Shown here one piece after another: positions 9,520-21,636 of a stretch of 42,033 bases of DNA. The stretch is from the IMG/VR virus record IMGVR_UViG_3300010157_000112, positions 1 through 42,033 of that record; one strand, given 5' to 3'. Both the position numbers and the translations under genes were made by a program. Under the pieces are notes generated by a model. It ran no database searches, was not told the origin of the DNA, and saw only the letters and a list, made by a program, of their open reading frames with translations. How positions within the stretch are numbered: position 1 is the stretch's first letter; every line of letters starts with the position of its first letter. The DNA comes from a virus.

Positions 9520-9531
9520 CCAACACAAACA
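9520..9531 (+). repeat. Conserved 12-mer CCAACACAAACA, plus-strand copy
   Basis: The only copy of the recurring motif found on the plus strand, four bases after the acidic gene and immediately before the terminator hairpin. Its orientation follows rightward transcription, whereas all other copies follow leftward transcription. Confidence 0.8.
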
Positions 9532-9533
9532 TT

Positions 9534-9568
9534 AAGCCCCCCGACCATAATGGCCGAGGGGCTTTTTG
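9534..9568 (+). terminator. Terminator between convergent operons
   Basis: AGCCCC (9535-9540) pairs with GGGGCT (9558-9563), with an inner CCA/TGG hairpin, followed by TTTTT at 9563-9567. It ends the rightward block. Because the leftward block ends at 9576, it may also serve from the other side (A-run on that strand). Confidence 0.85.
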
Positions 9569-9575
9569 TTTGAGA

Positions 9576-9788
9576 TTATTCGGCTATTAACTTACCGTTA
9601 CCAGAGCGTAGTTCATAGAACGTAGAACTACTCTCTTCAGTTTGTTCCTGGGCATCATCAAGATCATCTATATAGATATCCTCTGTTAAAAGATTTTCAT
9701 AGATTTCAATTGCGTGGTTATCATCATCCGCTATGAATGATAATACTCCTGCCCTACTACTATCGAATATAACGCTATAACGTGCCAT
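9576..9788 (-). CDS. Hypothetical acidic protein
   Basis: A 70-residue protein, last gene of the leftward block. It has a good Shine-Dalgarno (GGAGG) 8 bases from ATG. An N-terminal strand-rich half (ARYSVIFDSSRAGVLSF) precedes an acidic C-terminal half. Overlaps the upstream gene by 14 bases. No family recognised. Confidence 0.65.
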   Translation of the reverse strand: MARYSVIFDSSRAGVLSFIADDDNHAIEIYENLLTEDIYIDDLDDAQEQTEESSSTFYELRSGNGKLIAE

Positions 9789-9972
9789 CTTTGTCCTCCA
9801 TTTCCATTTCTATTTGGTCATATGCATCAGCAGCTAGGAGATAGTTAGCTCCCGCCTCATCATCACAGTCTTCACAAGGTTGTACATCCCATTCTTCTGT
9901 GTTACCAAAGAATAGATATCCCCTGCCATGGCAGTTACTACATGTCAGGGGTTTAACTGTTTCCATATCCAT
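9775..9972 (-). CDS. Small zinc-finger protein, DnaJ-like CxxC pairs
   Basis: A 65-residue protein with CSNCHGRGYLFFG and CEDC, the CxxCxGxG spacing of one DnaJ-type zinc module, then an acidic helix. It starts at a TAATG junction with the previous gene. Probably a metal-binding adaptor; partner unknown. Confidence 0.7.
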   Translation of the reverse strand: MDMETVKPLTCSNCHGRGYLFFGNTEEWDVQPCEDCDDEAGANYLLAADAYDQIEMEMEDKDGTL

Positions 9973-10262
9973 TATGCTCTCTCGTCTACCTTATAGGTTA
10001 GTTCGCCAGTTAAATGAGACGGCTTACCTAGTGGAGTTGTAGCTTGAACTACCATCTTAATAGACTTGCGTGGTGTGAATCTGATTACGAACTGCTTTAG
10101 ATAGCGTTTAGCAGCAGATGGGTTAGCCCATGCTGTAAAGCTATCTGTTATGGTGGTGTCTTCTTCTGTTACTGTTATATGTAGTAACCATGCTCCACCT
10201 TTTTCTACGATGACGTTCTTATTTAGATCTGCTTTTAGCATTTGTGATACTTTTTTATCCAT
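9972..10262 (-). CDS. Hypothetical protein
   Basis: A 96-residue protein with AGGAGAGCAACAA upstream of ATG. Mixed alpha/beta character, no cysteines, C-terminal strand-rich segment (TGELTYKVDERA). No recognised family. Position near the end of the leftward early block. Confidence 0.65.
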   Translation of the reverse strand: MDKKVSQMLKADLNKNVIVEKGGAWLLHITVTEEDTTITDSFTAWANPSAAKRYLKQFVIRFTPRKSIKMVVQATTPLGKPSHLTGELTYKVDERA

Positions 10263-10273
10263 TTGTTGCTCTC

Positions 10274-10513
10274 CTATAGTTTTATGTTTGACTCAAAGCC
10301 TACCTTCTTTAGGTCTCTGAGTATATTTTTTCCTGCTCTAAAGTCTCCTAAGGACTGTTGTCCAAAGAATACCACTTGTTTGGTGTCACTATTGACCACT
10401 TTTATGTGGTGCTTGCCTGGCGTTATTGAGACGTCAAGGCCAGCATCCTCTAGAGCAGAGATCAGTTTTCGCATTTGTTTATCCTTCAATTGAAAGTTAG
10501 CAAATTCGAACAT
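10274..10513 (-). CDS. Putative HicA-like small protein
   Basis: A 79-residue protein with ISALEDAGLDVSITPGKHHIKVV, then a strand and GDFRAGKNILRDLKKVGF. The order helix, Gly-Lys-His-His strand, short strand and final helix resembles the HicA double-stranded-RNA-binding-like fold, where the His is catalytic. No HicB-type antitoxin is obvious beside it, so a phage RNA-binding domain rather than a toxin is possible. Good Shine-Dalgarno AAAGGAT. Confidence 0.4.
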   Translation of the reverse strand: MFEFANFQLKDKQMRKLISALEDAGLDVSITPGKHHIKVVNSDTKQVVFFGQQSLGDFRAGKNILRDLKKVGFESNIKL

Positions 10514-10591
10514 TGGATATCCTTTCTAGTGTGTAAGGTATACTAAAGGTGCTAGCTCTAAGTACGACAGAGTTATCACCCTCAGTTGAGT

Positions 10592-10613
10592 ACCCCGGAC
10601 ATGCGCCCGGGGT
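10592..10613 (-). terminator. Hairpin overlapping a stop codon
   Basis: ACCCCGG (10592-10598) pairs with CCGGGGT (10607-10613). On the leftward transcript the hairpin begins inside the stop codon of the 10613-10822 gene. No U-run follows, so it may stabilise or process mRNA rather than terminate. Confidence 0.5.
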
Positions 10614-10822
10614 TACTCTTCTATTATGTGTATGTGTTTAATAACTGCACCTTCGCCTGGTGAATCTAATGCATTAACCTGGATCCATTCTTCTTTGTTG
10701 CGGTCATACACATATAGACACCATTCTCGGTTTTCTATTTGTTCTTGATCTCCAATACGCCACTTGGCAATAGTTACCTCATAGAGTATTTTGAGTTTTG
10801 TTGTTAACTTGTCATTGGACAT
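10613..10822 (-). CDS. Hypothetical protein
   Basis: A 69-residue protein with Shine-Dalgarno GGGAGAA. An N-terminal basic helix (TTKLKILYEVTIAKW) precedes a strand-rich middle and HIHIIEE end. No recognised family. The repeated CCAACACAAACA motif sits in its leader. Confidence 0.6.
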   Translation of the reverse strand: MSNDKLTTKLKILYEVTIAKWRIGDQEQIENREWCLYVYDRNKEEWIQVNALDSPGEGAVIKHIHIIEE

Positions 10823-10841
10823 TTTCTCCCATTTCTGCTGA

Positions 10842-10853
10842 TGTTTGTGTTGG
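10842..10853 (-). repeat. Conserved CCAACACAAACA motif
   Basis: Exact 12-mer on the leftward strand, 6 bases after the stop of 10860-11084 and before the Shine-Dalgarno of the next gene. Confidence 0.8.
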
Positions 10854-10859
10854 GCGATG

Positions 10860-11084
10860 TCACAGTATCAGTGCGGCATTTATTTCATCTTCTTCGGTTT
10901 CATTATATATGTCTCCTACTTCAGCCCATCCAGCGTTAAAGTCCTCACGCCATTTGGCTGAGTTCTCATCCATAATCTGTTCTTCAGCAAGAGCTTTAGC
11001 TTCAGCTTCGGATGATGCTGTAATGAATGAGTCATATATCCTATGTTCATGGATTGTTACTCTATACATATTTCTATCTACCAT
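10860..11084 (-). CDS. Hypothetical protein
   Basis: A 74-residue protein starting MVDRNMYRVTIHEHRIYDSF. The start at 11084 is preferred because it forms TAATG with the upstream stop; an in-frame ATG 51 bases earlier would run into the upstream gene. The body is an acidic helix ending in hydrophobic residues. Many phage genes of this kind have the form xYRVTI..Hx(3)DSFITASSEAEAK, but no function is known to me. Confidence 0.6.
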   Translation of the reverse strand: MVDRNMYRVTIHEHRIYDSFITASSEAEAKALAEEQIMDENSAKWREDFNAGWAEVGDIYNETEEDEINAALIL

Positions 11085-11536
11085 TATTCCACCCCCTTTG
11101 TTGTTACTCGGAATGACCCATCTGGCATAGGCCATTTGTATGGCAAGTCATCTTCTACCTCAAAGTCATAATGCTCTGGAAGCTTACGCTTTAAGTTAGA
11201 TTGATGACTCTTATGAAACTCTTCTGCTCCTAACCACCAAGGTTTCTTGATAGCTACAAGCTTATGTTGTTTCATAAGTTCGATTATTTGCCCCCTCATA
11301 TTATCTACGAACCCACGCTTTGACCACTCATTACACATAGTGATAGCATAGGCAGCTAGCATACCTTCGTTACCACGCCACATTACAGCAGCAGGGTGAT
11401 TGCGCCATCCCTCAGTTAGACCCAGGTTGGCCTTGAGTATTTGAAACGCTTCTACACGTTGCTTACCCAATCTCCTATCGTCTAAGGATTCCGCTACTTG
11501 CACGAAGTTTGCATACGGTAGAAATGTATTTACCAT
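11084..11536 (-). CDS. MNTFLP-type (Pyr_excise family-like) protein
   Basis: A 150-residue protein beginning VNTFLPYANF, then LDDRRLGKQRVEAFQIL and NHPAAVMWRGNEGMLAAYAITMCNEW. This is the hallmark order of a family common in actinobacteria and their phages, often annotated as pyrimidine-dimer DNA glycosylase/endonuclease V-related. Activity has to my knowledge rarely been tested. The ATG at 11536 has GGAG eight bases upstream; a TTG four codons earlier is possible. Overlaps the upstream stop by seven bases. Confidence 0.7.
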   Translation of the reverse strand: MVNTFLPYANFVQVAESLDDRRLGKQRVEAFQILKANLGLTEGWRNHPAAVMWRGNEGMLAAYAITMCNEWSKRGFVDNMRGQIIELMKQHKLVAIKKPWWLGAEEFHKSHQSNLKRKLPEHYDFEVEDDLPYKWPMPDGSFRVTTKGVE

Positions 11537-11850
11537 GGTGCGCTCCAAGCGTTTAGGTTACATGATGTACAACGGACTTGATAGTCCTCTTCCATTACCT
11601 CCCACTCAAAATGTTTACACATTTGGTGTTCAGGTTTTAGCGAGTCCTCTTTCAATATAAATGGGTAACCAGGCGGCCAATCTGACTCATCTGGATCCAC
11701 ATCATATTGATAGTACTCACCCGCTAATTCTTCTGGAGTAAATTCTTTAATCATCTCCCCTGCTACTTGTCTAGCAGACCTGAGTGCCTGTATAGATACT
11801 CCAGCTTTTTTTGCTGTTAGATATTCTTCGAAGTTAAACACTTCTCCCAT
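11530..11850 (-). CDS. Hypothetical protein with C-terminal zinc site
   Basis: A 106-residue protein. The N-terminal half is helical and acidic; the C-terminus has MCKHFEWEVMEEDYQVRCTSC, a CxH plus CxxC arrangement that could bind zinc. It starts at a TAATG junction with the preceding gene. Function unknown. Confidence 0.6.
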   Translation of the reverse strand: MGEVFNFEEYLTAKKAGVSIQALRSARQVAGEMIKEFTPEELAGEYYQYDVDPDESDWPPGYPFILKEDSLKPEHQMCKHFEWEVMEEDYQVRCTSCNLNAWSAPW

Positions 11851-12041
11851 TACATTACCGCTTCCATTAATAGGTGATTATCCATTGCCCATTCCTGTGG
11901 TTCAGAGATGGATTCGATTGTTAGATTGGCGCCACCATCAATCATGGCATCTGAAGCATGCAGTATGAACATCTCTGCACTTTCATAGTCATTGAATGGC
12001 CCTATAAGTGTTTCTGTGACATTGTCATATACTGTGTACAT
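11850..12041 (-). CDS. Small hypothetical protein
   Basis: A 63-residue protein starting MYTVYDNVTETLIGPFNDYE, resembling small phage proteins with a strand-turn-strand and a helix. The ATG at 12041 is chosen because AAGGAGG lies just upstream; an in-frame ATG 51 bases earlier would overlap the VWA gene and lose the site. The recurrent motif lies directly in front of its Shine-Dalgarno. Confidence 0.65.
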   Translation of the reverse strand: MYTVYDNVTETLIGPFNDYESAEMFILHASDAMIDGGANLTIESISEPQEWAMDNHLLMEAVM

Positions 12042-12050
12042 TTTTCCTCC

Positions 12051-12063
12051 TTGTTTGTGTTGG
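12051..12063 (-). repeat. Conserved CCAACACAAACAA motif
   Basis: Exact 13-mer on the leftward strand, abutting the TAA stop of the VWA gene and running straight into the AAGGAGG ribosome site of the next gene. Confidence 0.85.
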
Positions 12064-13959
12064 TTAAGCGCTTCTACGCTTTTTGATTGCACCCATTACT
12101 ACCGCTTTGGCAAATGGGATTAGATCACGGGCAGAGTTGATACGCCCATAGATTTCAGCTTCATGGCGAAAACTATTATCGCTTTCTCCACGTTCTGTAT
12201 ACCACGTGTAATCTCGATCACGCATGATTAGAGTCATCGCAGTTAGAATGCCACGCTTACTAATACGTTGTATAACCTCGTCATTTCTTTCGTGGTTAAA
12301 CGCACCATCAGTAATGATAAACAGCATTTTGTTCTTCTTACGAGAAGACATGAGAAGCTGTTCAGCAGCAATCAGTGAGCCATATGGATTGGTACCTCCA
12401 TTGCCATATATAAACTTAAAGCGTGTTTTGTGAGCACGCTCTGTACGTTTGTAGGCAATCTCGGTTTTATCATCGAATGCGTACACCGTTACCGGTGCAT
12501 CGATAGCCTCAAGAGCACGCTTGATAGTCCAGCATGCTAAGGATGCGCTACGATCATTTTGGTCACTGCTCATAGAACCGGATCGATCAACTAAGATCAC
12601 CGCTTCTACATCAGCACCATCGTTACCCTCTTCCCAACGGTCAAAGGCTTCGTCTACTTCACATCCATTGATAACACGTTGGACATTTAGCTTACCACTT
12701 GGTACGCCTTTGTTCCAACCTGGCTCACACTCATCACGTAAGCGCTCAAGCTCTCTAGCAAAAGCACGATACATAACGACTGTGTCATTAGGAACATCGG
12801 TGAGGTCGAATTTGCCATCCTTAGTAGACTCATCGAACTTACCATCACCACCAACGATTACTCGTTGCTTGGCTTTGATATCCTGTTGAACTGCTTTGTT
12901 AGCATAGACCTCATCAATTGCATTGTTTAATGCATTATTGATATTGTCTGGAATACCACCCTTACTCTCATGATGTCCTTTACCAGGATCAATAGATGGT
13001 GGTGCATCTTGCTGTGCTTTCTGAAGCATGTCACGTATTGCTAGTGCTTCTGCTGCGCTTTGTGGTGCCGGTATGTTGAGGCCCTCATCGCTGGCATCGG
13101 GTTTGTTTGTGTTGGCGTTGTCTTCCTTAGTTTTAGGCTTAGGCATATACACTGACTCTGCTTTACCCATATTACTTGCACGTTGTGAGTCTTTCTCTTG
13201 CATCTTGCCAGGCTCAGGACGACCCTTAGCCATTGGATCACGGCTACCGCAAGCATTAGGACCACCCGATATGTCTGGGAACTCTTTGCGTATAGGCTTG
13301 AGCACCTCATCATTAAAGCGTTCGATAAGTATTTGTGCTTTCATGTAGTCCCTAGGGAATGCAAGTAAGCGATACTGATCCACGATATCCATGATGTTAG
13401 GTATAAGTTCGGGGAATGCAAACGCATCTCGATACGCTTCCCGAATCTCTACCGGTAGATATCTGCGACCACGTACTAGCATGTAAGCGCCAGAGGTTTC
13501 CTCTGGTGTTTCACCTAGCCATCTAGCCACAGTACCAATTAGATATGGAGCAACAGCTGGATACCTAGCACATAGTAATGTCTCAATGCGCTGGTCTTCC
13601 AACATGTTGGTAGCCTCCATATAATCATTTTGTAGAACCCATTTGATCAGTTCTGTACCCTTGCGAGGCGTATAGAAATGATGGGCTAGCTCATGATAGT
13701 TCAGGCCCGTCACCTGAGTTAGTGTTTCCATATCCATCTCAGATATTTCTTCTTGATTGATATAGATTGCGGCACCGTCAGACCAAGCGGGCGCAGGCCC
13801 ACCAGCCATTACGTTGACGATTAGTGGATCACCTGTAAGAACACGATCTGCTTGTTCATACACACGACAAAGAGCACCTAATTGAATGATGCGTTCTTGT
13901 TCTAGTTCTGAACGAGCGTCTCCTCCCCACGGTGAGTCATCTACTTCATCTATAAGCAT
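12064..13959 (-). CDS. VWA-domain protein with N-terminal HExxH (MoxR partner)
   Basis: A 631-residue protein. Residues 89-94 are HELAHH, a gluzincin-type HExxH motif, with NMLEDQRIE (about 118-126) supplying a possible third ligand Glu. A long disordered linker (about 230-330) follows, then a von Willebrand A domain with the MIDAS motif DRSGSMSS (D458, S460, S462) and a later TDGAF. This layout matches the peptidase-like/VWA partners of MoxR AAA+ ATPases and the CobT-type proteins of phages. It follows the MoxR gene by about 10 bases. Whether the HExxH is proteolytic is unknown. Confidence 0.85.
   Translation of the reverse strand: MLIDEVDDSPWGGDARSELEQERIIQLGALCRVYEQADRVLTGDPLIVNVMAGGPAPAWSDGAAIYINQEEISEMDMETLTQVTGLNYHELAHHFYTPRKGTELIKWVLQNDYMEATNMLEDQRIETLLCARYPAVAPYLIGTVARWLGETPEETSGAYMLVRGRRYLPVEIREAYRDAFAFPELIPNIMDIVDQYRLLAFPRDYMKAQILIERFNDEVLKPIRKEFPDISGGPNACGSRDPMAKGRPEPGKMQEKDSQRASNMGKAESVYMPKPKTKEDNANTNKPDASDEGLNIPAPQSAAEALAIRDMLQKAQQDAPPSIDPGKGHHESKGGIPDNINNALNNAIDEVYANKAVQQDIKAKQRVIVGGDGKFDESTKDGKFDLTDVPNDTVVMYRAFARELERLRDECEPGWNKGVPSGKLNVQRVINGCEVDEAFDRWEEGNDGADVEAVILVDRSGSMSSDQNDRSASLACWTIKRALEAIDAPVTVYAFDDKTEIAYKRTERAHKTRFKFIYGNGGTNPYGSLIAAEQLLMSSRKKNKMLFIITDGAFNHERNDEVIQRISKRGILTAMTLIMRDRDYTWYTERGESDNSFRHEAEIYGRINSARDLIPFAKAVVMGAIKKRRSA
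13103..13115 (-). repeat. Conserved CCAACACAAACAA motif inside VWA linker
   Basis: Exact 13-mer on the leftward strand inside the VWA gene, in the region coding a low-complexity linker (NANTNKPDA). The coding frame differs from the copy at 14895, so conservation is at the nucleotide level. Confidence 0.8.
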
Positions 13960-13968
13960 TTAACCTCC

Positions 13969-15357
13969 TTATACTAGTTGTTTAGCCCATTCTTCCAGGC
14001 GTTGGTCAATGCTTGCATCTGCAGGATGCTCTGTTACTTCACCAGTATCTAGACCAAAGTCAGTCTTGATGTTGTACTCATGAGTCTGGAAGACCATGCG
14101 TACGCTGGCTTGCTCATCTGTACTAAAGTGAGCGATAAAGTTCTCTGCTGCAAACTCATAGCCAAGATCGTCTACAAGCTTAGTGAACTCCATACCCATA
14201 TTGGTAGAGATTGGTGTTTCATATTGACCTTTAGCAGCCTCTACACGAAGTTGCTTCATCAATATGCGAAGAGCCTTAGAACCAATCAACTTCTCCTCAA
14301 CAGCATCGTCATAATCCCAAGGGATTTGAATGTCGAAGCGATTGCGGAACGCAAAGTTGAGCGGCGTGGTGCCGATATAATCTGGATTCATAGTAGCAAA
14401 GATAGTAAGGTCTGGATGAGCCTCAATAGTCTCGCCGTGATGATCGAGCAATATAATATTGCGACGACCATCGGTCAATGAATACAGATTGGTATAGATC
14501 TTAGGATTGATGAAGTTAACCTCATCAAGCAAAAGAACGCCACCATTGCGAACTACGTCAGTTACTGGACCATCAATCCACATGAATGCACCTTCTCCAT
14601 CGGAGACGAATTTTCCAGTCATTTGACTTGGCTCCATTGATGCATTACCAGAGATTGATGCCATACGTAAGCCACGCTCTGAGGCCCACGCTTCAACTGA
14701 TGTAGTCTTACCAGGGCCAGTTGGGCCATAGATAAGCACGTTGATACCTTCAGCACGTGCGTGGTCATAGACTTTGAAGTCTTCCACGCCCCACACCTTG
14801 CGATGTACATAGCGCTCAGCTAATTCCTTGCGTGGAACTGTTGCAAGATTTACGCTAAACACTTTGCCACCGGATGATACTGATGTGTTGTCCATTGTTT
14901 GTGTTGGCACAGGAACTACCAACGGGACTGTTGCACCAGCTTGACGACGATTATCTATTACATATGTTTCCAATGTGTCATCTCCAATTAGTGTTTGGTC
15001 ATACAGTTCATAGAGTTTATCTAAGAACGGTGTTGTATCTGTATTAGGTTCAGCCTTAGCATGCTGATTACATGCTTTAGTTCCCAATACAGGAGAATAG
15101 CCTTTGTCTGCAATTGCCTTCTCATCTGCTGCCGTAACATATACGCCAACAGGGGTCCGTGTCAATTGCTCATTGCTATCAATCATGTTCACGAATTGAT
15201 CTACGTGAGCATCCTCCCACTTATTGTGTGGACCTTTGCTACCATCAGTCATTCGAGACCAGATTCTGACTCCACCTTCATGCGGGGACATAAGGATTTG
15301 ACGTCGCTTAGCACCCATACTTGGTTCGTAAGACTCGGTGAATACTGCTATCTCCAT
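13969..15357 (-). CDS. MoxR-type AAA+ ATPase
   Basis: A 462-residue ATPase. Walker A is GPTGPGKT (211-218), Walker B is VLLLDEVNF with D278/E279, followed by DGRRNIILLDHHGETIEAHPDLTIFATMNPDYIGTT and an FRNRFD arginine-finger region, the signature of MoxR/CbbQ/CobS-like ATPases. The N-terminal 150 residues are an extra domain, joined by a linker that contains the recurrent DNA motif. Partnered with the VWA protein downstream, it probably remodels a protein complex; client unknown. Start supported by AAAGGAAC. Confidence 0.9.
   Translation of the reverse strand: MEIAVFTESYEPSMGAKRRQILMSPHEGGVRIWSRMTDGSKGPHNKWEDAHVDQFVNMIDSNEQLTRTPVGVYVTAADEKAIADKGYSPVLGTKACNQHAKAEPNTDTTPFLDKLYELYDQTLIGDDTLETYVIDNRRQAGATVPLVVPVPTQTMDNTSVSSGGKVFSVNLATVPRKELAERYVHRKVWGVEDFKVYDHARAEGINVLIYGPTGPGKTTSVEAWASERGLRMASISGNASMEPSQMTGKFVSDGEGAFMWIDGPVTDVVRNGGVLLLDEVNFINPKIYTNLYSLTDGRRNIILLDHHGETIEAHPDLTIFATMNPDYIGTTPLNFAFRNRFDIQIPWDYDDAVEEKLIGSKALRILMKQLRVEAAKGQYETPISTNMGMEFTKLVDDLGYEFAAENFIAHFSTDEQASVRMVFQTHEYNIKTDFGLDTGEVTEHPADASIDQRLEEWAKQLV
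14895..14907 (-). repeat. Conserved CCAACACAAACAA motif inside MoxR linker
   Basis: Exact 13-mer on the leftward strand encoding PTQT in the linker between the N-terminal region and the AAA+ domain. Confidence 0.8.
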
Positions 15358-15368
15358 TGTGTTCCTTT

Positions 15369-15632
15369 CTAGTTGTAGTTTTCTTCGTCACGAAGAACTT
15401 GTCTTTGCATGACGACTGCTGCTTCATACATTGCTACCTTTTGTCTAGGCCATTGTGTAATGAGCTCAAACAAAAAGCCGTTCTCTTCTGCCTTCTCCAT
15501 AATATAGTTCATATGGTCTTGAAGTTCAGAAATAATTTCATTTCTGACATCTTCAGGCATTTGCTGCAGTTGTTCGATAGCATCGCTACTGAACTCTGGC
15601 TCATCATCATCATCCCCACATTCGTGGCACAT
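15369..15632 (-). CDS. Hypothetical acidic protein, CxxC start
   Basis: An 87-residue protein starting MCHECGDDDDEPEFS, then a helical region (AIEQLQQMPEDVRNEIISEL) and a helical C-terminus. Start at 15632 chosen for AAAGGAAC upstream. Longer in-frame starts (ATG at 15701 and upstream) exist, and one has AAGG before it, so the N-terminus is uncertain. Lies just upstream of MoxR in the same transcript. Confidence 0.6.
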   Translation of the reverse strand: MCHECGDDDDEPEFSSDAIEQLQQMPEDVRNEIISELQDHMNYIMEKAEENGFLFELITQWPRQKVAMYEAAVVMQRQVLRDEENYN

Positions 15633-15657
15633 GATTAGTTCCTTTCTGTTATTAGGT

Positions 15658-15820
15658 TGAGTTGGCTTACCTCCGTTGCCGCACAGGGACTGAATGCCCA
15701 TCGCACCTTCTCTTTTCATCTCGCATACATTAGTTATCACGTACTACTAATGCGTGAGCCTTTAAATTACTCGGTTCTTGAATTGATTAAGTATGATTAG
15801 AGGTGGGCTTAGCCAACTCA
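15658..15820 (-). other. Structured leader with long inverted repeat
   Basis: TGAGTTGGCTTA (15658-15669) and TTAGCCAACTCA (15809-15820) pair over 11 of 12 bases, bracketing about 140 bases. On the leftward transcript the second arm ends about 25 bases before the start of the 15369-15632 gene. This could present or hide the ribosome site. Confidence 0.45.
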
Positions 15821-15825
15821 TCCTA

Positions 15826-15850
15826 TTTGGTATTCATATGTGATACCAAA
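15826..15850. promoter_or_regulatory. Palindrome centred on CATATG
   Basis: TTTGGTAT (15826-15833) and ATACCAAA (15843-15850) are perfect inverted arms around CATATG. It sits directly after the stop of 15852-16343. It could be an operator or an mRNA hairpin. Confidence 0.45.
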
Positions 15851-15851
15851 C

Positions 15852-16343
15852 CTAGAGGTTTAGTGATTCTTTTTCAACGTTCCACATATTGATAGCGTTA
15901 TCAGTTGTGTTAGCGATTGCTTGGTTGAAAGTCTCTGAGGTCCATTTGCGTAAGCCAATGGCTTGATACAGAGTCTTGATGTAATTAGAGGCTTGTTGTG
16001 CCGGTACTCTCATAATTACTTCTTTTGCCAAGTCTAATTGACCTGACATATAAGCCATACTCGCTGCGTATTCACAAAGAGTAAGTTCGGTTTTTGTTTG
16101 AACATGCTCAACAGTATTTAGTGCTTGAATAAATGTTCTAGCACATCCTTCTGTTGAATTGCTTTTTAATGCGATCACTAAGAAAGCATCACGTAGCGCT
16201 TCTGTTTGTGTTGACCACTCAAGTAGATTGCTAGGCATAATGCCTGCACTTACATACAGAACTAATTGTTCTGCCCCATCTATTGAGCCGCTTATCTGTG
16301 GATAGACTGCTTGTGGATCATACTTAGCCGATAGGTTCGACAT
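15852..16343 (-). CDS. Hypothetical helical protein
   Basis: A 163-residue, alanine-rich, predominantly helical protein (TELTLCEYAASMAYMSGQLDLAKEVIMRV). The repeat-like helices could be a TPR- or DUF4192-like fold, but the match is too weak to assert. It overlaps the upstream zinc gene by 20 bases. A degenerate recurrent motif lies inside (16203-16214). Confidence 0.6.
   Translation of the reverse strand: MSNLSAKYDPQAVYPQISGSIDGAEQLVLYVSAGIMPSNLLEWSTQTEALRDAFLVIALKSNSTEGCARTFIQALNTVEHVQTKTELTLCEYAASMAYMSGQLDLAKEVIMRVPAQQASNYIKTLYQAIGLRKWTSETFNQAIANTTDNAINMWNVEKESLNL
16203..16214 (-). repeat. Degenerate copy of the recurrent motif
   Basis: TCAACACAAACA on the leftward strand, 11 of 12 matches, within a coding region (STQTEA). 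It keeps the regular spacing of the series. Confidence 0.6.
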
Positions 16344-17049
16344 AGTCTGCCACCATCCTTTCTAGTAGTGTTGCTGCTGATTTGATGATCTTTCCATCAC
16401 GTAAACGAAGAGGGGTTCCATCCCACTGTGTACGCTCAGGTTTACTTCCATAGTCTCTCTTCTTAGAGCCACTACAGAAATAACAAGTTTGGCTTCTCTT
16501 TACCATATGAGACTGATCATTTCCGTGTACACACGGCAAGCTATGCCAGTATCTATGGCCCTTAACATCCATATCAGGATGTTTTGCGCAGGTTTGAAAG
16601 CCTTTTTCATTTATTTTGACGTTGTAACAAGTATCGGTGCTGCACCAACCATCTAATAATCCGGTCTGTGAACATTGACGACAGCCTTGTATCTTAGGCT
16701 TACTAAGAGGGGCGCCATCTTCTTGTAAATAGAACTTATGATTACGCTGGAATACTTGAATACCTGCGTAACGTTGGATAGTAAGACGTACTGAGTGACT
16801 GCGTAATGGGTTCCAAGTACTGCCCCAATGTGTAACTGTATCTATACCGCTGATAACAGTTGTTCCGTCTTTATGGAAGGTAACGAACTTACTTGTTCCT
16901 CCACCAAAGTGCCAACCTATATTTATGGGACTATCAGCGTCCCATTTGTTTTCTTTCCAGATGCGAAGACCTCTATCATATAAAGGACGCTCATACTTCT
17001 TGCGACCTCCAGATAAGAAAGTCGAACCCCAATTCCAATCAGGAATCAT
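16324..17049 (-). CDS. Hypothetical protein with several zinc knuckles
   Basis: A 241-residue protein. The N-terminal part is Trp- and Gly-rich (WNWGSTFLSGG...GWHFGGGTSKFVTFHKDGTT), probably beta. The middle has CRQCSQTGLLDGWCSTDTC and a later C-x-KHP and CVHG/CYFC series, at least two zinc sites. GHRYWH occurs in the linker, as in the 830-1306 protein. Starts at a TAATG junction. No family recognised. Confidence 0.6.
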   Translation of the reverse strand: MIPDWNWGSTFLSGGRKKYERPLYDRGLRIWKENKWDADSPINIGWHFGGGTSKFVTFHKDGTTVISGIDTVTHWGSTWNPLRSHSVRLTIQRYAGIQVFQRNHKFYLQEDGAPLSKPKIQGCRQCSQTGLLDGWCSTDTCYNVKINEKGFQTCAKHPDMDVKGHRYWHSLPCVHGNDQSHMVKRSQTCYFCSGSKKRDYGSKPERTQWDGTPLRLRDGKIIKSAATLLERMVADYVEPIG

Positions 17050-17360
17050 TAATCAACCTCCTCATAAAATAATGATACTTTGCTCTGCTGTTGTAAGTCA
17101 AACATCCGCTCACGCAGACGCTCAACCTGTTTTGCTGGTTCTTCTTCCTCATAAAAAGAAAGACTAATGGGGAAGATCGGTGCTTCTTGTGCGGGTTGAT
17201 TTGACAATAAGCCAATTACCATGCCAAGACCATCGATTATGCCGGCACTATAAGAGCGCATTACTTGGCTCTCTTCGAACTGGCTATCTTGATGTTCTTC
17301 CCACATTAACCGATTGATCTTGTCAATCAGTCCCTTGCGCTTAACCAGTAACTTTCGCAT
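17049..17360 (-). CDS. Hypothetical protein
   Basis: A 103-residue protein with Shine-Dalgarno AAGGAGG. A basic start (MRKLLVKRKGLIDKINRL), a hydrophobic middle (SAGIIDGLGMVIGLL) that is too polar for a clear membrane span, and a charged coiled-coil-like tail. No family recognised. Confidence 0.6.
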   Translation of the reverse strand: MRKLLVKRKGLIDKINRLMWEEHQDSQFEESQVMRSYSAGIIDGLGMVIGLLSNQPAQEAPIFPISLSFYEEEEPAKQVERLRERMFDLQQQSKVSLFYEEVD

Positions 17361-17381
17361 ACTGGTACCTCCTTATGGGTA

Positions 17382-17407
17382 AGCCCCCGCCATTGCTGAC
17401 GGGGGCT
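17382..17407 (-). terminator. Stable hairpin after recurrent motif
   Basis: AGCCCCCG (17382-17389) pairs with CGGGGGCT (17400-17407). On the leftward transcript the order is stop, motif, hairpin, Shine-Dalgarno, next ATG. There is no U-run, so it is a weak terminator or a processing/stability element. Confidence 0.55.
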
Positions 17408-17410
17408 GGT

Positions 17411-17423
17411 TTGTTTGTGTTGG
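17411..17423 (-). repeat. Conserved CCAACACAAACAA motif
   Basis: Exact 13-mer directly abutting the TAA stop of 17424-17858, the same arrangement as at 12051. Confidence 0.85.
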
Positions 17424-17858
17424 TTAGCGAATGAATGACGCCCATGTAGATGATGAACTGATCTTGAATTCAGTATCAGTTGCACCATCAATTAGAGCGA
17501 TAGCATTTTGTACTTGCTCATACTCAGATACAGCATCATGACGAGTATTTTTGTACTGTGGTTCACGCTCATTAGTTGGGCGTTCACCTAGCGCAGCCTC
17601 AGCCAATTCAATATTAAATGAATAGGTTAAAGAGAATCGATTGTGATACTTATTAGTATCAACCTCGTAAGCTTTAGCTACATTCTTTTTAGCCCATGCT
17701 TTGGCTTTGCTATCCCAAGCGTCTTGACGCTTGTTGAGAGTTGATTGGTTCTTTTCCCATTCACTTATCTCTGCGTCCATACGCTTGAGTGTTTCGGTTA
17801 GTTTCTTGACTAAGTCTTTCTTAGCCCAAGTTGTTGCGATGACCTTGTTACTGGCCAT
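17424..17858 (-). CDS. Hypothetical coiled-coil protein
   Basis: A 144-residue protein with an N-terminal coiled-coil (KKDLVKKLTETLKRMDAEIS, then further heptads to about residue 65) and a polar folded C-terminal half. Strong AAGGAGG site. No family recognised. Confidence 0.65.
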   Translation of the reverse strand: MASNKVIATTWAKKDLVKKLTETLKRMDAEISEWEKNQSTLNKRQDAWDSKAKAWAKKNVAKAYEVDTNKYHNRFSLTYSFNIELAEAALGERPTNEREPQYKNTRHDAVSEYEQVQNAIALIDGATDTEFKISSSSTWASFIR

Positions 17859-17871
17859 AGCACGCCTCCTT

Positions 17872-18177
17872 TTAGTTAGGTGGTGTTACAGGGACTCCTG
17901 CAACATATTCATTCTCTTGGCTATCAATAACCACGAGAGTGTTTTCAACGTAGGCATTGCCTACTGGCGTTTCTCCAATCGTTGCGTAAACCAATGCGCT
18001 CTTCAGACTCTGAAGCTCATCTTCGGTAAGGTGCAAGAGCTTGGTTTTTGCTAAACGATCGACCATACCTATAACACGACCAGCACACTCTAGACGAGTG
18101 GCATCTTCGGTCAAGTCATCGGAATATTTTTTCTCTTTGAGGTAGTCCAAAGAGTAGACTTTGAGGTTATTAGGCAT
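17872..18177 (-). CDS. Hypothetical protein
   Basis: A 101-residue protein. An N-terminal helix-rich part (YLKEKKYSDDLTEDATRLE), then VGNAYVENTLVVIDSQENEY and a proline-rich end. Overlaps the upstream gene by eight bases. No family recognised. Confidence 0.6.
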   Translation of the reverse strand: MPNNLKVYSLDYLKEKKYSDDLTEDATRLECAGRVIGMVDRLAKTKLLHLTEDELQSLKSALVYATIGETPVGNAYVENTLVVIDSQENEYVAGVPVTPPN

Positions 18178-18463
18178 TAGACATAGCCTCTAACTTCTCA
18201 GGATCAAATGCCGGAGTTAGAGATGTTGCTGTGTACACCTTTCCTGTTTTCCAATGAGGAATTGATTTGTGGTTCCAACGACCACCCATAGCCTTCCAAG
18301 CTTCACGCTTGGCATTACTAGCAGCACTGCGACCATTCACGTGAGTGAAGTTAGTCTTTTCTGGCTGTGCTGGGCCTGGGTTTTTCTTGCGTGCTTTACC
18401 GTTCTTACGGTCGCCCGCTGTGTTTACTTTAGGAGCTGGTGCTCCTCCTCTACCTTTTGCCAT
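18170..18463 (-). CDS. Basic hypothetical protein
   Basis: A 97-residue protein. The first 35 residues are Gly/Lys/Pro-rich and basic (MAKGRGGAPAPKVNTAGDRK), then a Trp-containing segment (AWKAMGGRWNHKSIPHWKTG). Possibly nucleic-acid binding. Shine-Dalgarno AAAGGGG. Confidence 0.6.
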   Translation of the reverse strand: MAKGRGGAPAPKVNTAGDRKNGKARKKNPGPAQPEKTNFTHVNGRSAASNAKREAWKAMGGRWNHKSIPHWKTGKVYTATSLTPAFDPEKLEAMSNA

Positions 18464-18483
18464 TGTCTGGCCCCTTTCGGAGG

Positions 18484-18639
18484 TTAGTTGATTGTCTCTA
18501 CACGAGTGTATAGAGTGTTGATGCCATCATTCCATAGCATCAATGCTTCGTTGCGTGTGAGGCCATAGAATAACTGGGCCTCTATAATGAACAGGTGCTT
18601 GCCGATGAATGTGTCGGGCGTTGTTTGTGTTGGTTGCAT
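18484..18639 (-). CDS. 51-residue protein whose start contains the recurrent motif
   Basis: Starts at a TAATG junction with the preceding gene and begins MQPTQTTPDTFIGKHLFIIE, so the recurrent nucleotide motif encodes PTQT at its N-terminus. The remainder is helical (AQLFYGLTRNEALMLWNDGI). No strong Shine-Dalgarno; coupling is likely. Function unknown. Confidence 0.6.
   Translation of the reverse strand: MQPTQTTPDTFIGKHLFIIEAQLFYGLTRNEALMLWNDGINTLYTRVETIN
18621..18633 (-). repeat. Conserved CCAACACAAACAA motif
   Basis: Exact 13-mer on the leftward strand, five bases after the stop of 18639-18878 and within the first codons of 18484-18639. Confidence 0.85.
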
Positions 18640-18878
18640 TAGATATGCCAATCTAATAGATCAGTTGTTCCCCATTTACGATAGGGTGCATCTATGATGC
18701 TATATAACTTCCACCATCTATACCCTGCTTTGGGCATAGTCTCTTCGTTCTCATACTTAATTTCATATCTTAATGCTTTATGCAATGGGTATGAAGATAA
18801 GTGGTCGCACCAATTAGCAAACCATCTAAGAGGTAATACATTTGTTTTGTGTATCGGTGTGGTTTTAAAATCTTCCAT
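18639..18878 (-). CDS. Trp/His-rich hypothetical protein
   Basis: A 79-residue protein beginning MEDFKTTPIHKTNVLPLRWF, containing WCDHLSSYPLHKALRYEIKY and ending in WHI. The start at 18878 follows GAAAGGATAAC; an upstream in-frame ATG (18914) lacks this site. No family recognised. Confidence 0.6.
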   Translation of the reverse strand: MEDFKTTPIHKTNVLPLRWFANWCDHLSSYPLHKALRYEIKYENEETMPKAGYRWWKLYSIIDAPYRKWGTTDLLDWHI

Positions 18879-18897
18879 TGTTATCCTTTCTATTAGA

Positions 18898-19018
18898 TGA
18901 GCAGTTTTAATCATCGTGCTCAGGATGTTTGGCGTAGGCGAGGATACTTTTTACTCCTAGGAGCTATCACTATCGTGCCATACCAATTATGGTGAGCAGT
19001 TTAACCTCATTGCTCAGG
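18898..19018 (-). repeat. Pair of imperfect direct repeats, each a small hairpin
   Basis: TGAGCAGTTTTAATCATCGTGCTCAGGA (18898-18925, cited by position) recurs imperfectly at 18993-19018. Each has GAGCA and TGCTC arms. They lie in the non-coding stretch between the genes at 18878 and 19058, where no gene is seen. They could be regulatory sites or leader hairpins. Confidence 0.5.
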
Positions 19019-19057
19019 AGTCGTGTTTTACCTCAGGTCTCGCCAGACCAACTGTCA

Positions 19058-19261
19058 CTAGTAAATTGGAGTAATCTTTACAAGATCTTCTTCCAATTTA
19101 GTAGAGACATATTTGCCACTCTCTCGAGTGGATTCGTAACAACCTTTCCAAGTTTCGTGATAGGTATCAGTACCATTGCGGACTCTGATTTCTAGCTTGG
19201 ATTGGTGTGATTGGATTCTCCGACCACAGTTGTTACAATATTGCAAGGCGGGTTTCGCCAT
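19058..19261 (-). CDS. Small zinc-finger protein
   Basis: A 67-residue protein beginning MAKPALQYCNNCGRRI, with CxxC and a later lone Cys (KGCYES). Start at 19261 chosen because AAAGGAGG lies eight to ten bases upstream; an in-frame ATG nine codons earlier has no such site. Possible zinc or structural role. Confidence 0.65.
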   Translation of the reverse strand: MAKPALQYCNNCGRRIQSHQSKLEIRVRNGTDTYHETWKGCYESTRESGKYVSTKLEEDLVKITPIY

Positions 19262-19316
19262 TGCGGTACCTCCTTTTAGCAGGTACATCCCACTACTTGT
19301 GGGAATACTAATACAG

Positions 19317-19341
19317 ATGGGGGTTGCTAGGCAACCCCCAT
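19317..19341 (-). other. 11-bp perfect hairpin
   Basis: ATGGGGGTTGC (19317-19327) and GCAACCCCCAT (19331-19341) pair fully around TAG. It stands between the 38-residue ORF and the 19058-19261 gene. No U-run on either strand; likely an mRNA stability or attenuation element. Confidence 0.6.
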
Positions 19342-19404
19342 ACTGTCAGTTATCCAGGATTAAAGAGGGATTGGACAATCAGTTCAATCCATAACTCACG
19401 ATGG

Positions 19405-19521
19405 CTATGGGTATCGTAAAGGGCTCAGACCAGGGGTTCGGATACATCTATTAGCGAACTCATTACTGAGTAAAGCGTTCGAAGCCTTAGCAACTGCTTT
19501 GCCTAATTTCTCAATACACAC
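19405..19521 (-). CDS. Possible 38-residue basic peptide
   Basis: An open frame from GTG at 19521, seven bases after AAAGGA, encoding MCIEKLGKAVAKASNALLSN then a basic proline-containing tail. The N-terminal half is an amphipathic helix. It lies in the stretch between the 17-base inverted repeat and the 19317 hairpin. Real gene status is uncertain. Confidence 0.4.
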   Translation of the reverse strand: MCIEKLGKAVAKASNALLSNEFANRCIRTPGLSPLRYP

Positions 19522-19553
19522 TCGATATTCCTTTCATTGGTTGTCTATACAAC

Positions 19554-19766
19554 CAGGACACACACTAAACGAACTACAAAAGGACCTTTACTCATCTTCG
19601 GGTTTACCTTTTCCACAGCCCTGTTAGTGAGTAGATTCTAGGAATCTATCCGATACGCCACTGCGCTCAACAACTGTGGGGAATTACAAGCATAGAACGC
19701 TAAGTTGAACAGACAACCGCTGCGTCGTGCTTATCCTTTGAGTGTAGGTGTTTAGTGTGTGTCCTG
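19554..19766 (-). ncRNA. Candidate structured RNA bounded by 17-bp inverted repeat
   Basis: CAGGACACACACTAAAC (19554-19570) and GTTTAGTGTGTGTCCTG (19750-19766) are perfectly complementary over 17 bases and enclose about 180 bases with no convincing gene. Inside are CCACAG/CTGTGG arms (about 19612 and 19672) and TAGATTC/GAATCTA (19632-19648). The outer helix may continue via CTAC and AAAGGA pairing. Only short frames occur here. This could be an RNA, a leader or a recombination footprint. Strand follows the surrounding genes. Confidence 0.45.
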
Positions 19767-19782
19767 ACTGTACAGGCGGGGA

Positions 19783-19795
19783 TTGTTTGTGTTGG
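19783..19795 (-). repeat. Conserved CCAACACAAACAA motif
   Basis: Exact 13-mer on the leftward strand, 23 bases after the stop of 19819-20061, followed by TCCCCGCC, which resembles the core of the separate GC-box element at 20746 and 21022. Confidence 0.85.
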
Positions 19796-19818
19796 AGCGA
19801 CAGTTAGTATTAGTTACT

Positions 19819-20061
19819 CTATGACCTTCTGCTCTCATAGTCTGAGATTGCTTCTTGTATTGTTCGTCCATAATCCCCTTGTACACACATACCTGAGTCT
19901 TCCATATATGTGTGAACAACAAAAGGGGTTACTTTATTGTGGGCTAGAAAACACAGCACTATTGTTGTGTTTGGATATATGCCCGGCTTACAGGCTAGTA
20001 CAAGCCCTTTGTTAGATTCAATATTAGTACCTATACTGATAACTGTTATATCGTCAGTCAT
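19819..20061 (-). CDS. Hypothetical protein
   Basis: An 80-residue protein with AAAAAGGAGA upstream of ATG. Strand-rich N-terminus (DITVISIGTNIESNKGLVLA), then IVLCFLAHNKVTPFVVHTY. No known domain. The preceding overlapping gene ends inside its start (ATGACTGA). Confidence 0.6.
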   Translation of the reverse strand: MTDDITVISIGTNIESNKGLVLACKPGIYPNTTIVLCFLAHNKVTPFVVHTYMEDSGMCVQGDYGRTIQEAISDYESRRS

Positions 20062-20203
20062 TGCTTATCTCCTTTTTCCATAGCCTACGCATACGCCTAG
20101 ACCAACGCTTCTTGTTGGGTAAGGAAGTTGCTGCATTCGAGCGCCTCAATTCCTGAATCCTTTGTACCTTGGACTTGTCCTTGTTGGGATAACTGCGGAA
20201 CAT
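20054..20203 (-). CDS. Embedded basic mini-protein
   Basis: A 49-residue frame starting MFRSYPNKDKSKVQRIQELR and ending with an Arg/Lys-rich helix. It lies mostly inside the 20097-20327 gene in another frame and overlaps the next start by eight bases. It has AAAGGAG seven to eight bases before its ATG. Charge pattern and spacing look like a genuine gene, possibly nucleic-acid binding. Confidence 0.5.
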   Translation of the reverse strand: MFRSYPNKDKSKVQRIQELRRSNAATSLPNKKRWSRRMRRLWKKEISND

Positions 20204-20327
20204 AGATAGTCTCCTTTATCTGCATAGCCATTACCTGCTGAATGATTGCAAGACATAGCAAGTGCTTGTCGTGCTGAGTGATAGCACCTGCCTTACTTAT
20301 CTTGGCTGTTACTTGTAGCGTGTTCAT
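20097..20327 (-). CDS. Hypothetical protein overlapped by a second frame
   Basis: A 76-residue protein with AGGAAGG before its ATG, directly downstream of a terminator hairpin. The first 45 residues look like a folded helical domain (AITQHDKHLLCLAIIQQVMA). The last 30 are Gln/Gly-rich and coincide with the embedded gene, so they may be constrained by it. Confidence 0.5.
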   Translation of the reverse strand: MNTLQVTAKISKAGAITQHDKHLLCLAIIQQVMAMQIKETIYVPQLSQQGQVQGTKDSGIEALECSNFLTQQEALV

Positions 20328-20350
20328 TGTTGCCTTCCTGTAGAGGGATA

Positions 20351-20394
20351 AAAGAAGGGCGGGGAGAGCCCCCTCTAGCTCTCAACCCGCCCGG
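20351..20394 (-). terminator. Intrinsic terminator in leftward block
   Basis: On the leftward strand GGGCGGGTTGAGAGC pairs with GCTCTCCCCGCCC, followed by TTCTTTT. This is the only leftward hairpin here with a convincing U-rich tail. It probably ends transcription from the genes at 20427-22421, or attenuates it, so the genes downstream may need their own promoter or an antitermination mechanism. Confidence 0.75.
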
Positions 20395-20426
20395 TGTCTA
20401 CGTAGATGTAGACCTCTCACATAATG

Positions 20427-20555
20427 CTACTTATTGAGCGTCTCCTTGAGGAGTTTGACTTGCAGACGCATAGTGCCGACTTCGGCAAGGGTTGCGATAC
20501 AAAACTCCTCTAACTTGCTGAGATGTTCGTCAATAATGCGGGCTAACTCTTCCAT
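20427..20555 (-). CDS. 42-residue helical protein
   Basis: MEELARIIDEHLSKLEEFCI continues to a long heptad-like helix ending LKETLNK, a probable coiled coil. The ATG follows TTAGGAGACGAGCA, a good ribosome site. It overlaps the upstream gene by 13 bases. Confidence 0.6.
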   Translation of the reverse strand: MEELARIIDEHLSKLEEFCIATLAEVGTMRLQVKLLKETLNK

Positions 20556-20686
20556 TGCTCGTCTCCTAACGATACGGATACATTAAACGGACCGACTTGG
20601 ATAGCAATCTCTTTAGAGAATGAATACCAAGCGACATTAAGTGCAATACCCCAATTGCGTGGGGTAATTATCCAATGTAGGTGCAT
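20543..20686 (-). CDS. 47-residue hypothetical protein
   Basis: MHLHWIITPRNWGIALNVAW and onward, an aromatic-rich small protein with GAAAGGAAAGACA before ATG. Strand-rich (IAIQVGPFNVSVSLG). It lies between the motif at 20718 and the coiled-coil gene. No family recognised. Confidence 0.6.
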   Translation of the reverse strand: MHLHWIITPRNWGIALNVAWYSFSKEIAIQVGPFNVSVSLGDEQWKS

Positions 20687-20717
20687 TGTCTTTCCTTTCT
20701 TATAGGTGGTGCGTGGG

Positions 20718-20730
20718 TTGTTTGTGTTGG
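20718..20730 (-). repeat. Conserved CCAACACAAACAA motif
   Basis: Exact 13-mer on the leftward strand, following the CCCCGCC hairpin after the 20765-21004 gene. Confidence 0.85.
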
Positions 20731-20745
20731 TACGCCCCCGCCGGC

Positions 20746-20767
20746 AGAAAATTGGCGGGGAAACTTA
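20746..20767 (-). repeat. 22-bp GC-box repeat, copy 1
   Basis: AGAAAATTGGCGGGGAAACTTA in plus sense, spanning the stop of 20765-21004. With the neighbouring CCCCCGCCGG it can form a CCCCGCC/GGCGGGG hairpin. Identical to 21022-21043. Confidence 0.8.
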
Positions 20768-21004
20768 CTTTAGTGTATATAATTCAACAGCCTTAGTTTC
20801 ATACTCCATAACCTGTTCAGTTATAACATAGCCAATTACATCATTGTCTTGAGCATCTGTTATTAGTTCGGCTACAACCTTCATAGTTCCATCACACATC
20901 TCAAAGAAAAATGTGCGTGAAGCATCAGTTACCTCAGAAGGGCATTGACGATAGAGCATCTCAAACATAGGGTTATCCTGACTTATAACAGGGTTTAATC
21001 CCAT
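20765..21004 (-). CDS. Hypothetical protein
   Basis: A 79-residue protein with AAAGGAG upstream. It has an FFFEMCDGTMKVVAEL core and a final strand (YVITEQVMEYETKAVELYTL). No family recognised. Its stop lies inside the GC-box repeat. Confidence 0.6.
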   Translation of the reverse strand: MGLNPVISQDNPMFEMLYRQCPSEVTDASRTFFFEMCDGTMKVVAELITDAQDNDVIGYVITEQVMEYETKAVELYTLK

Positions 21005-21021
21005 CTACTTCTCCTTTCTGT

Positions 21022-21043
21022 AGAAAATTGGCGGGGAAACTTA
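21022..21043 (-). repeat. 22-bp GC-box repeat, copy 2
   Basis: Identical 22 bases to 20746-20767, again spanning the TAA stop of the upstream gene (21041-21253) and lying in the leader of 20765-21004. Confidence 0.85.
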
Positions 21044-21253
21044 TTTGTTGAGGGTATAGTGTGTCTCGTATGTAGAGATAAACGAGAAGGCACCGGCACA
21101 GGTATAGCAATACACTTCAGTAGGCACGCCTAGCATAAAGGCATCAGTACCGGAGTAGACGAGTTTGGTGGATTCACAATTAGGGACAGCACACACCTTT
21201 GGAGCGGGCTTGGTGTGTTGGGAACATACGTATGAGCCTAGGCAACCGCACAT
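21041..21253 (-). CDS. Cys-rich zinc-binding protein
   Basis: A 70-residue protein starting MCGCLGSYVCSQH, then CAVPNCES and YCYTCAG: eight cysteines and a His, enough for two zinc sites. It begins the base after the previous stop (TAAATG). Function unknown. Confidence 0.65.
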   Translation of the reverse strand: MCGCLGSYVCSQHTKPAPKVCAVPNCESTKLVYSGTDAFMLGVPTEVYCYTCAGAFSFISTYETHYTLNK

Positions 21254-21385
21254 TTACTTAGCCTTTGCCTTAGCCTTACAGGTCTTACATACATAAGACG
21301 AGCCGATAGTAACGAGGTGCATTACTTCAGCCCCGCGTATCTCTTGCTTGCTCTTGCACTTAGCGCAATAGATGGTTGCGTTCAT
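21254..21385 (-). CDS. 43-residue zinc ribbon
   Basis: MNATIYCAKCKSKQEIRGAE and onward, with a second pair (YVCKTC) and a Lys-Ala tail: two CxxC knuckles. AAAGG upstream. Stop adjoins the next start. Likely a zinc ribbon of the kind that helps transcription or replication proteins. Confidence 0.65.
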   Translation of the reverse strand: MNATIYCAKCKSKQEIRGAEVMHLVTIGSSYVCKTCKAKAKAK

Positions 21386-21408
21386 AGCATTACCTTTCGT
21401 GGGTGGGA

Positions 21409-21438
21409 TTGTTTATGTCGGGCGAAAATCGGCGGGGA
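21409..21438 (-). repeat. Degenerate composite of motif and GC-box
   Basis: TTGTTTATGTCGG (21409-21421, 11 of 13) adjoins GAAAATCGGCGGGGA (21424-21438), a relative of the 22-bp GC-box repeat. The two elements also sit side by side at 20718-20767. Confidence 0.65.
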
Positions 21439-21636
21439 TACCGATGGCTCTCTGTGTAGATAGAGAGTGAGAGAGACATAAGGAACAGAGACCATACACG
21501 CTCACTAAGAAGCCTCAGTCATAAGTCTTATGTCTCTTCCACTAACTACCTAGTAACTACCTGCTCATAGAGTAGCCCCCTAGCCGTAGGCCTGGTGGTA
21601 CTCACAATGATCATAGATAGTTGCCGACAGTAGCCT

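Follow-up and report, generated by a model that had tools for sequence, protein, structure and literature searches.

A 12-nucleotide motif evenly spaced along a gene block of CobS/CobT-encoding phages, and its possible role in the control of transcription elongation

In IMG/VR virus record IMGVR_UViG_3300010157_000112 (positions 1 to 42,033, hereafter the window), a 12-nucleotide (nt) motif, CCAACACAAACA, recurs about every 1.2 kb along a single leftward gene block, aligned with transcription, and it is conserved, with the same polarity, in the corresponding block of related phages. We tentatively propose, at somewhat less than even confidence, that the motif is a polar, cis-acting site for a putative trans-acting factor which acts on elongating RNA polymerase, in a manner resembling that of the stoperators of mycobacteriophages. 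How large uncultured phages of this kind control their genes seems to be unexplored; the persistence of one fixed word in different genes and reading frames, and in genomes that have diverged, suggests that a whole block has its transcription policed from within the genes, and gives the search for the factor a concrete target that can be tested. If correct, the proposal would mean that the stoperator idea applies to virulent-looking phages as well, and also to control that depends on spacing.

The window contains nine exact copies of CCAACACAAACA, which is its most frequent 12-mer, where 0.0066 would be expected on both strands (0.0037 + 0.0029, order-2 Markov model). Eight are on the minus strand within the leftward block (9576..22421, minus, from the open reading frame (ORF) list and the gene map). 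Of these, 10842..10853, 19784..19795 and 20719..20730 are intergenic, the last being preceded by a GC-rich inverted repeat; 12052..12063 stands right behind the stop codon of a CobT-like gene and ahead of an AGGAGG ribosome-binding site, 17412..17423 right behind a stop codon and ahead of a GC-rich hairpin, and 18622..18633 after the gene 18639-18914, within a doubtful ORF of 51 amino acids. Two exact copies lie inside genes, 13104..13115 in the CobT-like gene (frame 1, ANTN) and 14896..14907 in a CobS-like AAA+ gene (frame 0, PTQT). Two weaker minus-strand copies, TCAACACAAACA at 16203..16214 (one mismatch; coding, frame 0 of ORF 15852-16343) and CCGACATAAACA at 21410..21421 (two mismatches), are recurring variants seen at matching positions in relatives: TCAACACAAACA in loci L010, L011 and L033, and CCAACATAAACA as the counterpart of the second in L010/G001. 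The ninth exact copy, 9520..9531, is on the plus strand, between the stop codon of the last rightward gene and a bidirectional terminator; the motif thus changes orientation where the gene map changes direction. Apart from it, no exact copy occurs outside the block, and the sole copy with a single mismatch there is 37943(+). The original prediction had listed the same nine exact and two degenerate sites (its coordinates, such as 21409, are one lower where a 13-mer with trailing A was counted), their rarity, three copies in coding regions, the flip at 9520 and rightward blocks otherwise free of the motif; all of this was reproduced. Chance might be invoked for a low-complexity word of A and C, or a short peptide conserved at the protein level, but this explanation has next to no probability left and is refuted by the copy count together with the differing reading frames and the intergenic copies.

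The ten minus-strand sites of the window are separated by gaps of 691-1792 nt with a coefficient of variation (CV) of 0.24, and the regular spacing that had been claimed was confirmed by permutation, as 1 of 5000 uniform placements was equally regular (p 0.0004). Relatives were sampled as 65 loci fetched by CobT or CobS, some of which share a contig; 27 of the 66 sets thus available (the window and 26 of the 65 loci) had at least seven sites, and in these the CV of the gaps was 0.17-0.42, with simulation p values of 2e-4 to 0.04; several sets come from one phage or contig, so they do not amount to 27 independent tests. The widest common gap, 1.8 kb, extends from the site in the linker of CobS to that in the linker of CobT; in L010, L033, L022 and L023-L025 an extra site is found near its middle, at three differing places.

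Absence from relatives, one of two counter-observations named at the outset, was not what was found: at least one exact sense copy was found in 63 of the 65 loci, and the other two contain four copies each of a one- or two-letter variant (CCAACATAAACA in L032, CCAACGTAAACA in L063). Exactly one exact copy in the opposite direction is present in 51 loci, none in 14 and more in no locus. A 71.9-kb IMG/VR contig whose CobS and CobT proteins are 100% identical to those of the window shares the sites of the window and their spacing. For 26 of the loci the underlying records were scanned in full, and every record contained a match, which was to be expected given how they had been retrieved; among the matches listed, the copies mostly clustered in one block, with a single copy in G026 and three each in G007 and G009. 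Equal density in unrelated regions, the other counter-observation, was not seen either: in eight gene-mapped records, with block limits set by hand from the gene maps, the density is 0.41-0.95 per kb in the block and 0-0.035 elsewhere, the latter corresponding to 0-3 outliers per record.

Similar sequence contexts were removed before polarity, logo, coding frame, openness and hairpins were counted. In the resulting non-redundant blocks, cut at the opposite copy, 138 exact copies are in the sense direction and 0 in antisense, with 52 versus 4 copies bearing one change and 40 versus 4 bearing two; the claimed alignment with transcription is thereby strengthened for the clade to which the window belongs. 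Among the 52 single changes in sense copies, 28 are C1>T and 14 are C7>T. Selection for pairing, including G:U pairs, to an RNA complementary to the motif was considered and rejected; 46 of the 52 changes are transitions, yet 42 fall at positions 1 and 7, and C>T is never seen at positions 2, 5 or 11. Variants drift in concert, L032 having four copies of CCAACATAAACA and L063/G020 four of CCAACGTAAACA, which suggests a trans-acting factor, since such a factor would be expected to cause joint drift.

The CobT-like gene shows that it is the nucleotides which are selected, as had been proposed. In 12 of 25 loci the linker site is read in frame 1 (ANTN, PNTN, TNTN and similar), in L014 and L018 in frame 0 (PTQT); in L016, L017, L020, L021, L031 and L037 the site is found in the VWA domain, some 830 nt further downstream (read as FNTN or FDTN), L018 has both a linker and a VWA site, and five loci (L028, L029, L035, L036, L040) have none in this gene. 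Frame 0 is also used in L047, L050 and L070. Because the copy uses two frames or has moved to another domain, conservation of the protein cannot account for it. The sense strand of CCAACACAAACA consists of A and C only, and a logo of 223 non-redundant copies (both strands pooled, variation permitted at positions 1, 6 and 7 only) shows an A next to the motif in 63% and then, from about +14 to +22, a stretch with little T (7-19%) and much C (39-49%). The T-poor tail also accompanies coding copies (T 0.13 versus 0.24 upstream, 85 copies), and the flanks of the 223 copies contain no conserved upstream element at a fixed distance. Copies often start right behind a stop codon; the intergenic ones of the window are 10-262 nt ahead of start codons, and further copies are inside genes.

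A word of A and C with a T-poor tail keeps a reader of single strands, probably of RNA, in play. It is conceivable, if doubtful, that the array works as a relay: one and the same nascent-RNA signal, repeated at even intervals along the operon, would let a phage factor engage RNA polymerase anew after each ~1.2 kb. We know of no counterpart to such a way of controlling elongation. In its more specific form, in which a factor of antitermination or anti-Rho type is loaded again by the RNA motif at intervals of 1-2 kb and processivity through a long operon of small genes is thereby secured, the idea is rather unlikely; it would explain the alignment with transcription, the composition of the sense strand, the tail of about nine nt at coding and non-coding copies alike and, if the signal had a limited range, the even spacing, but opposite copies stand a few nt before strong hairpins, which would defeat a loading site, copies in two distant relatives (G027 and G030, below) are mostly antisense, and no NusG-like or antiterminator family is among those listed for 119 proteins of the related contig G012. 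The single-strand character of the sequence and its frequent position between stop codon and ribosome-binding site would equally suit a role in mRNA processing, decay or stabilisation, with a ribonuclease or RNA-binding protein cutting or protecting pieces of ~1.2 kb. We regard this as quite unlikely in view of the mid-gene copies and, again, the antisense copies of G027 and G030. For such a role one might also point to a protein of 79 amino acids encoded near the block end (10274-10513, minus), which matches HicA weakly (Pfam E 0.012, short of the cut-off); a HicA-like gene was detected in many relatives, not in all, and it was not detected in several that have the motif. As a candidate reader of the motif, the HicA-like nuclease was rejected for its weak match and patchy presence.

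In 27 of 28 non-redundant cases the opposite copy is directly followed by a strong hairpin; in the window this copy is in sense for the converging operon and lies behind the last stop codon of that operon and ahead of the terminator shared by both operons, a hairpin with T tract at 9536..9571 (fold -17.4 kcal/mol, T-rich tail). The same order of gene end, motif and terminator-like hairpin is repeated at G012 87419 and G018 99404 (probably one and the same gene end), at G010 38136 and G028 64255 (judged by eye) and, within the block, at G018 78955; three of the nine outliers in the eight gene-mapped records are of this kind. Furthermore, a copy directly follows the major capsid gene at L375 18792 (G010), L371 18645 (G028) and L373 4844 (G031), preceded in two of the three by a GC-rich inverted repeat; the site just after the capsid gene is a frequent attenuation point in phages.

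The copies within the operon and those beside terminators are most simply brought together by control of elongation. When bound, the putative factor would pause or stop polymerases travelling in the direction of the motif; with a site about every 1.2 kb, any polymerase in the leftward operon would meet one within 1-2 kb, expression of the entire operon might in this way be metered, or halted altogether, at some point during infection, and a site beside an intrinsic terminator would strengthen the stop at the end of the operon. We count in favour of this proposal the polarity, the spacing, the shifts of position in CobT, the gap-filling sites and the terminator-side and post-capsid copies; a stop or slow-down would suit the terminator-side copies better than antitermination does. 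Among the mechanisms suggested initially, antitermination would accordingly seem to fit less well, and a translation-related element is unlikely in view of mid-gene copies in several frames. Promoters distributed along the block for phage or host RNA polymerase, as in T7-like phages, whose promoters lie between genes and are aligned with transcription, would account for the alignment, for a density of about one per 1.2 kb and for the often intergenic location. They are very improbable, given the lack of a partner element at a fixed distance, the copies a few nt ahead of terminators and the mid-gene copies; the single-subunit polymerase family PF00940 was found in 0 of 19 records, although no control genome matched either.

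Several observations weigh against control of elongation at these sites, some of them from distant relatives. Searches with the motif plus flanking letters gave a set of further phages that is a lower bound; among them, G027 (GC content 0.56) and G030 contain 8 and 6 copies, respectively, within an intergenic module of ~66 nt and common design (14 copies, at L361:15009-19284 and L362:656-1928 in G027 and L366:10505-16108 in G030). Read against the motif, the module consists of a hairpin, TGTTTGTGTTGR, a C-rich stretch (CCCACCCTCCC in most) and GAGAGAGA, followed in many copies by GTTATCAAATCGTTATCAAA-like repeats; in 8 of 14 single folds, judged by eye, a short stem, variable in sequence, encloses the C-rich stretch. 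The module has no Rfam match, and L361, L362, L366 and L368 yielded one tRNA only; it may be a structured leader or regulatory element of a new kind, and this sister lineage re-uses the same word in structured intergenic modules. Set against the called genes that surround or overlap them, the copies are antisense in five of six cases in G030 and in five of eight in G027. The remaining three of G027 comprise two in sense to a called ORF and one flanked by converging calls, and the sixth copy of G030 is within a doubtful ORF. At G027 15595 and 17737 a ribosome-binding site and ATG follow in the direction of the module, so those two sense calls may be wrong. Alignment with transcription is therefore a rule of the clade of the window and not of the whole group, and the antisense copies are the strongest result against a reading purely at the level of mRNA, unless antisense transcripts are the target. 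Hairpins follow block copies no more often (7%, n=182) than random positions (9%, n=260), two of the nine outliers are antisense to a called gene, and L010/G001 contains both variants, which weakens the argument from joint drift. The sparse loci L029, L031, L035 and L036 retain 2-3 exact sense copies with gaps of up to 8.8 kb; even spacing is therefore not indispensable. Stoperators, on which the proposal is modelled, are themselves unevenly spaced in Trixie and D29. The A/C-only word and T-poor tail resemble a single-strand signal more than a DNA operator; against a single-strand reader, in turn, no added single-strandedness of the RNA flanks was seen in the 120 of 181 copies that were folded. 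Finally, no cognate factor has been identified; WhiB-, SpoVS- and resolvase-like proteins, considered as candidates among widely shared genes, were rejected, as their homologues are also encoded by phage BRock, which lacks the motif.

The distant relatives also bear on a role in the handling of DNA, such as lagging-strand priming or a polar fork barrier, with the spacing set by the length of Okazaki fragments. Spacing of ~1-1.3 kb regardless of genes, a single flip of orientation, an orientation relative to genes that is not universal and hairpins around the motif in G027, G028 (three of whose copies are, by eye, flanked by inverted arms) and G030 would agree with it. Such a role is nonetheless improbable, as the motif is confined mainly to one block of 10-15 kb in a genome of ~100 kb, the opposite copy and some outliers are tied to terminators, and the GC skew of three genomes has no clear turning point at the flip. 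A replication origin at the block was rejected as well, the same skews showing nothing clear there.

The closest analogue known to us may be the stoperators of Cluster A mycobacteriophages (L5, Bxb1, Trixie, D29), which, in PMC6550527 and PMC9283540, are described as repressor sites of 13-14 bp, asymmetric and multi-copy, aligned with transcription, many in short intergenic gaps, and without effect once reversed. The motif shares the short, asymmetric, multi-copy nature (12-13 bp here), the many copies in short intergenic gaps and, except in G027 and G030, the alignment. It differs in being concentrated in one block with few outliers, where stoperators are spread over both genome arms; in its even spacing; and in its copies inside genes and its T-poor tail. 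For comparison, sites were located in Trixie and D29 with a stoperator consensus, up to 2 mismatches being allowed; the 19 plus-strand sites of each right arm were used, to the exclusion of another 3 plus-strand and 8 minus-strand matches per phage. Their CV is 0.98 in Trixie and 1.09 in D29; once the cluster at one end is removed it falls to 0.71 and 0.63, respectively. Cluster A phages are temperate and have an integrase or parABS, whereas the tyrosine integrase family PF00589 was found here in 0 of 19 records (control positive in 14 of 14). Stoperators are bound by the immunity repressor of the L5 gp71/Bxb1 gp69 family; in 13 sequences of the present group, tblastn with Bxb1 gp69 gave a best E of 0.058 (42 amino acids, G027), a search that could miss a diverged repressor, and phmmer returned the positive control only. 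Because no integrase and no homologue of the Bxb1 repressor were found, and because of the concentration in one block and the even spacing, the motif is called stoperator-like and is not filed as a stoperator.

Other known systems appear more remote. The start-associated sequences of Cluster K mycobacteriophages, offered as a loose analogy in the original prediction, likewise are short conserved motifs recurring through an actinophage genome, but they mark gene starts; the present copies, 10-262 nt before starts or inside genes, are not tied to start codons, so that this analogy did not hold and stoperators would be the closer one. Processive antitermination signals (nut, put, ops, boxA) are short sense-strand elements acting on elongation as well, usually one or two per operon and near its start; here up to 12 are strung along the block, one of them directly before a terminator. 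CA-rich aptamers that bind RNA polymerase promote termination in cis and would resemble the motif in being CA-rich nascent RNA that acts on polymerase, although to our knowledge they have neither a fixed 12-mer nor even spacing.

The array is lacking in eight cultured phages (five of Streptomyces, two of Gordonia, one of Brevibacterium), two of which have one degenerate copy each; the top words in parts of the CobS/CobT phages GMA6, Cantare and Gray were coding-type repeats only, with no analogous motif among them, and the top words between genes outside the blocks, inspected for other array motifs, resembled ribosome-binding or start regions. A text search of the literature for CCAACACAAACA, the only motif search made in print, gave no phage paper among the matches listed. 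In bacteria, where a host signal of the Chi, KOPS or uptake type would be enriched, at least one exact copy occurs in 23 of 296 genomes from the class of the actinobacterium of L293, seven at most, a set that perhaps does not include the true hosts; the pattern of motif plus C tail gave 71 scattered matches in contigs of many phyla, two of them with a second copy or variant nearby. One bacterial chromosome (G123:C1:2854728-2899637) has, within 45 kb, seven exact copies that are all on the same strand, three of the steps between them being ~4.6 kb; these could be repeated modules of a large gene.

The leftward block, probably one transcription unit, is flanked by two rightward blocks and encodes the CobT-like protein (12064..13959, minus, with a VWA region), the CobS-like AAA+ ATPase (13969..15357, minus) and many small uncharacterised proteins. 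Many related contigs are of ~100 kb, and the window is a fragment of a virulent-looking phage of roughly that size. The related ~100-kb contig G012, of which 119 of 153 called genes were scanned for families, encodes T4-like tail-tube and baseplate proteins, DNA polymerase A, RecA and a DnaG-like primase, in addition to two WhiB-like proteins and one SpoVS-like protein; the families listed for these 119 proteins include no integrase, parABS and serine integrases having had no separate search. By capsid, the closest cultured phages are Streptomyces phages such as BRock and LuckySocke, and the top matches of CobS and CobT are in Gordonia and Brevibacterium phages; because of the WhiB proteins and these relatives, the host is probably an actinobacterium. 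The window has zero tRNAs and zero Rfam matches at the gathering threshold. Gene calls throughout are from a simple script, and records may be fragments.

Some minor features may be added. The block of the window also encodes a pyrimidine dimer DNA glycosylase-like protein (11084-11536, minus; PF03013, E 1.2e-18). In two places the motif lies, by eye, a few nt upstream of a tRNA-like sequence (L083 6316, corresponding to G018 86316, and L031 12944). A second short repeat, TTCCCCGCCAATTTTC or a near-match, accompanies small genes on the minus strand of the window near 20785, 21035 and 21440, and TCCCCGCC is enriched between block genes in four genomes.

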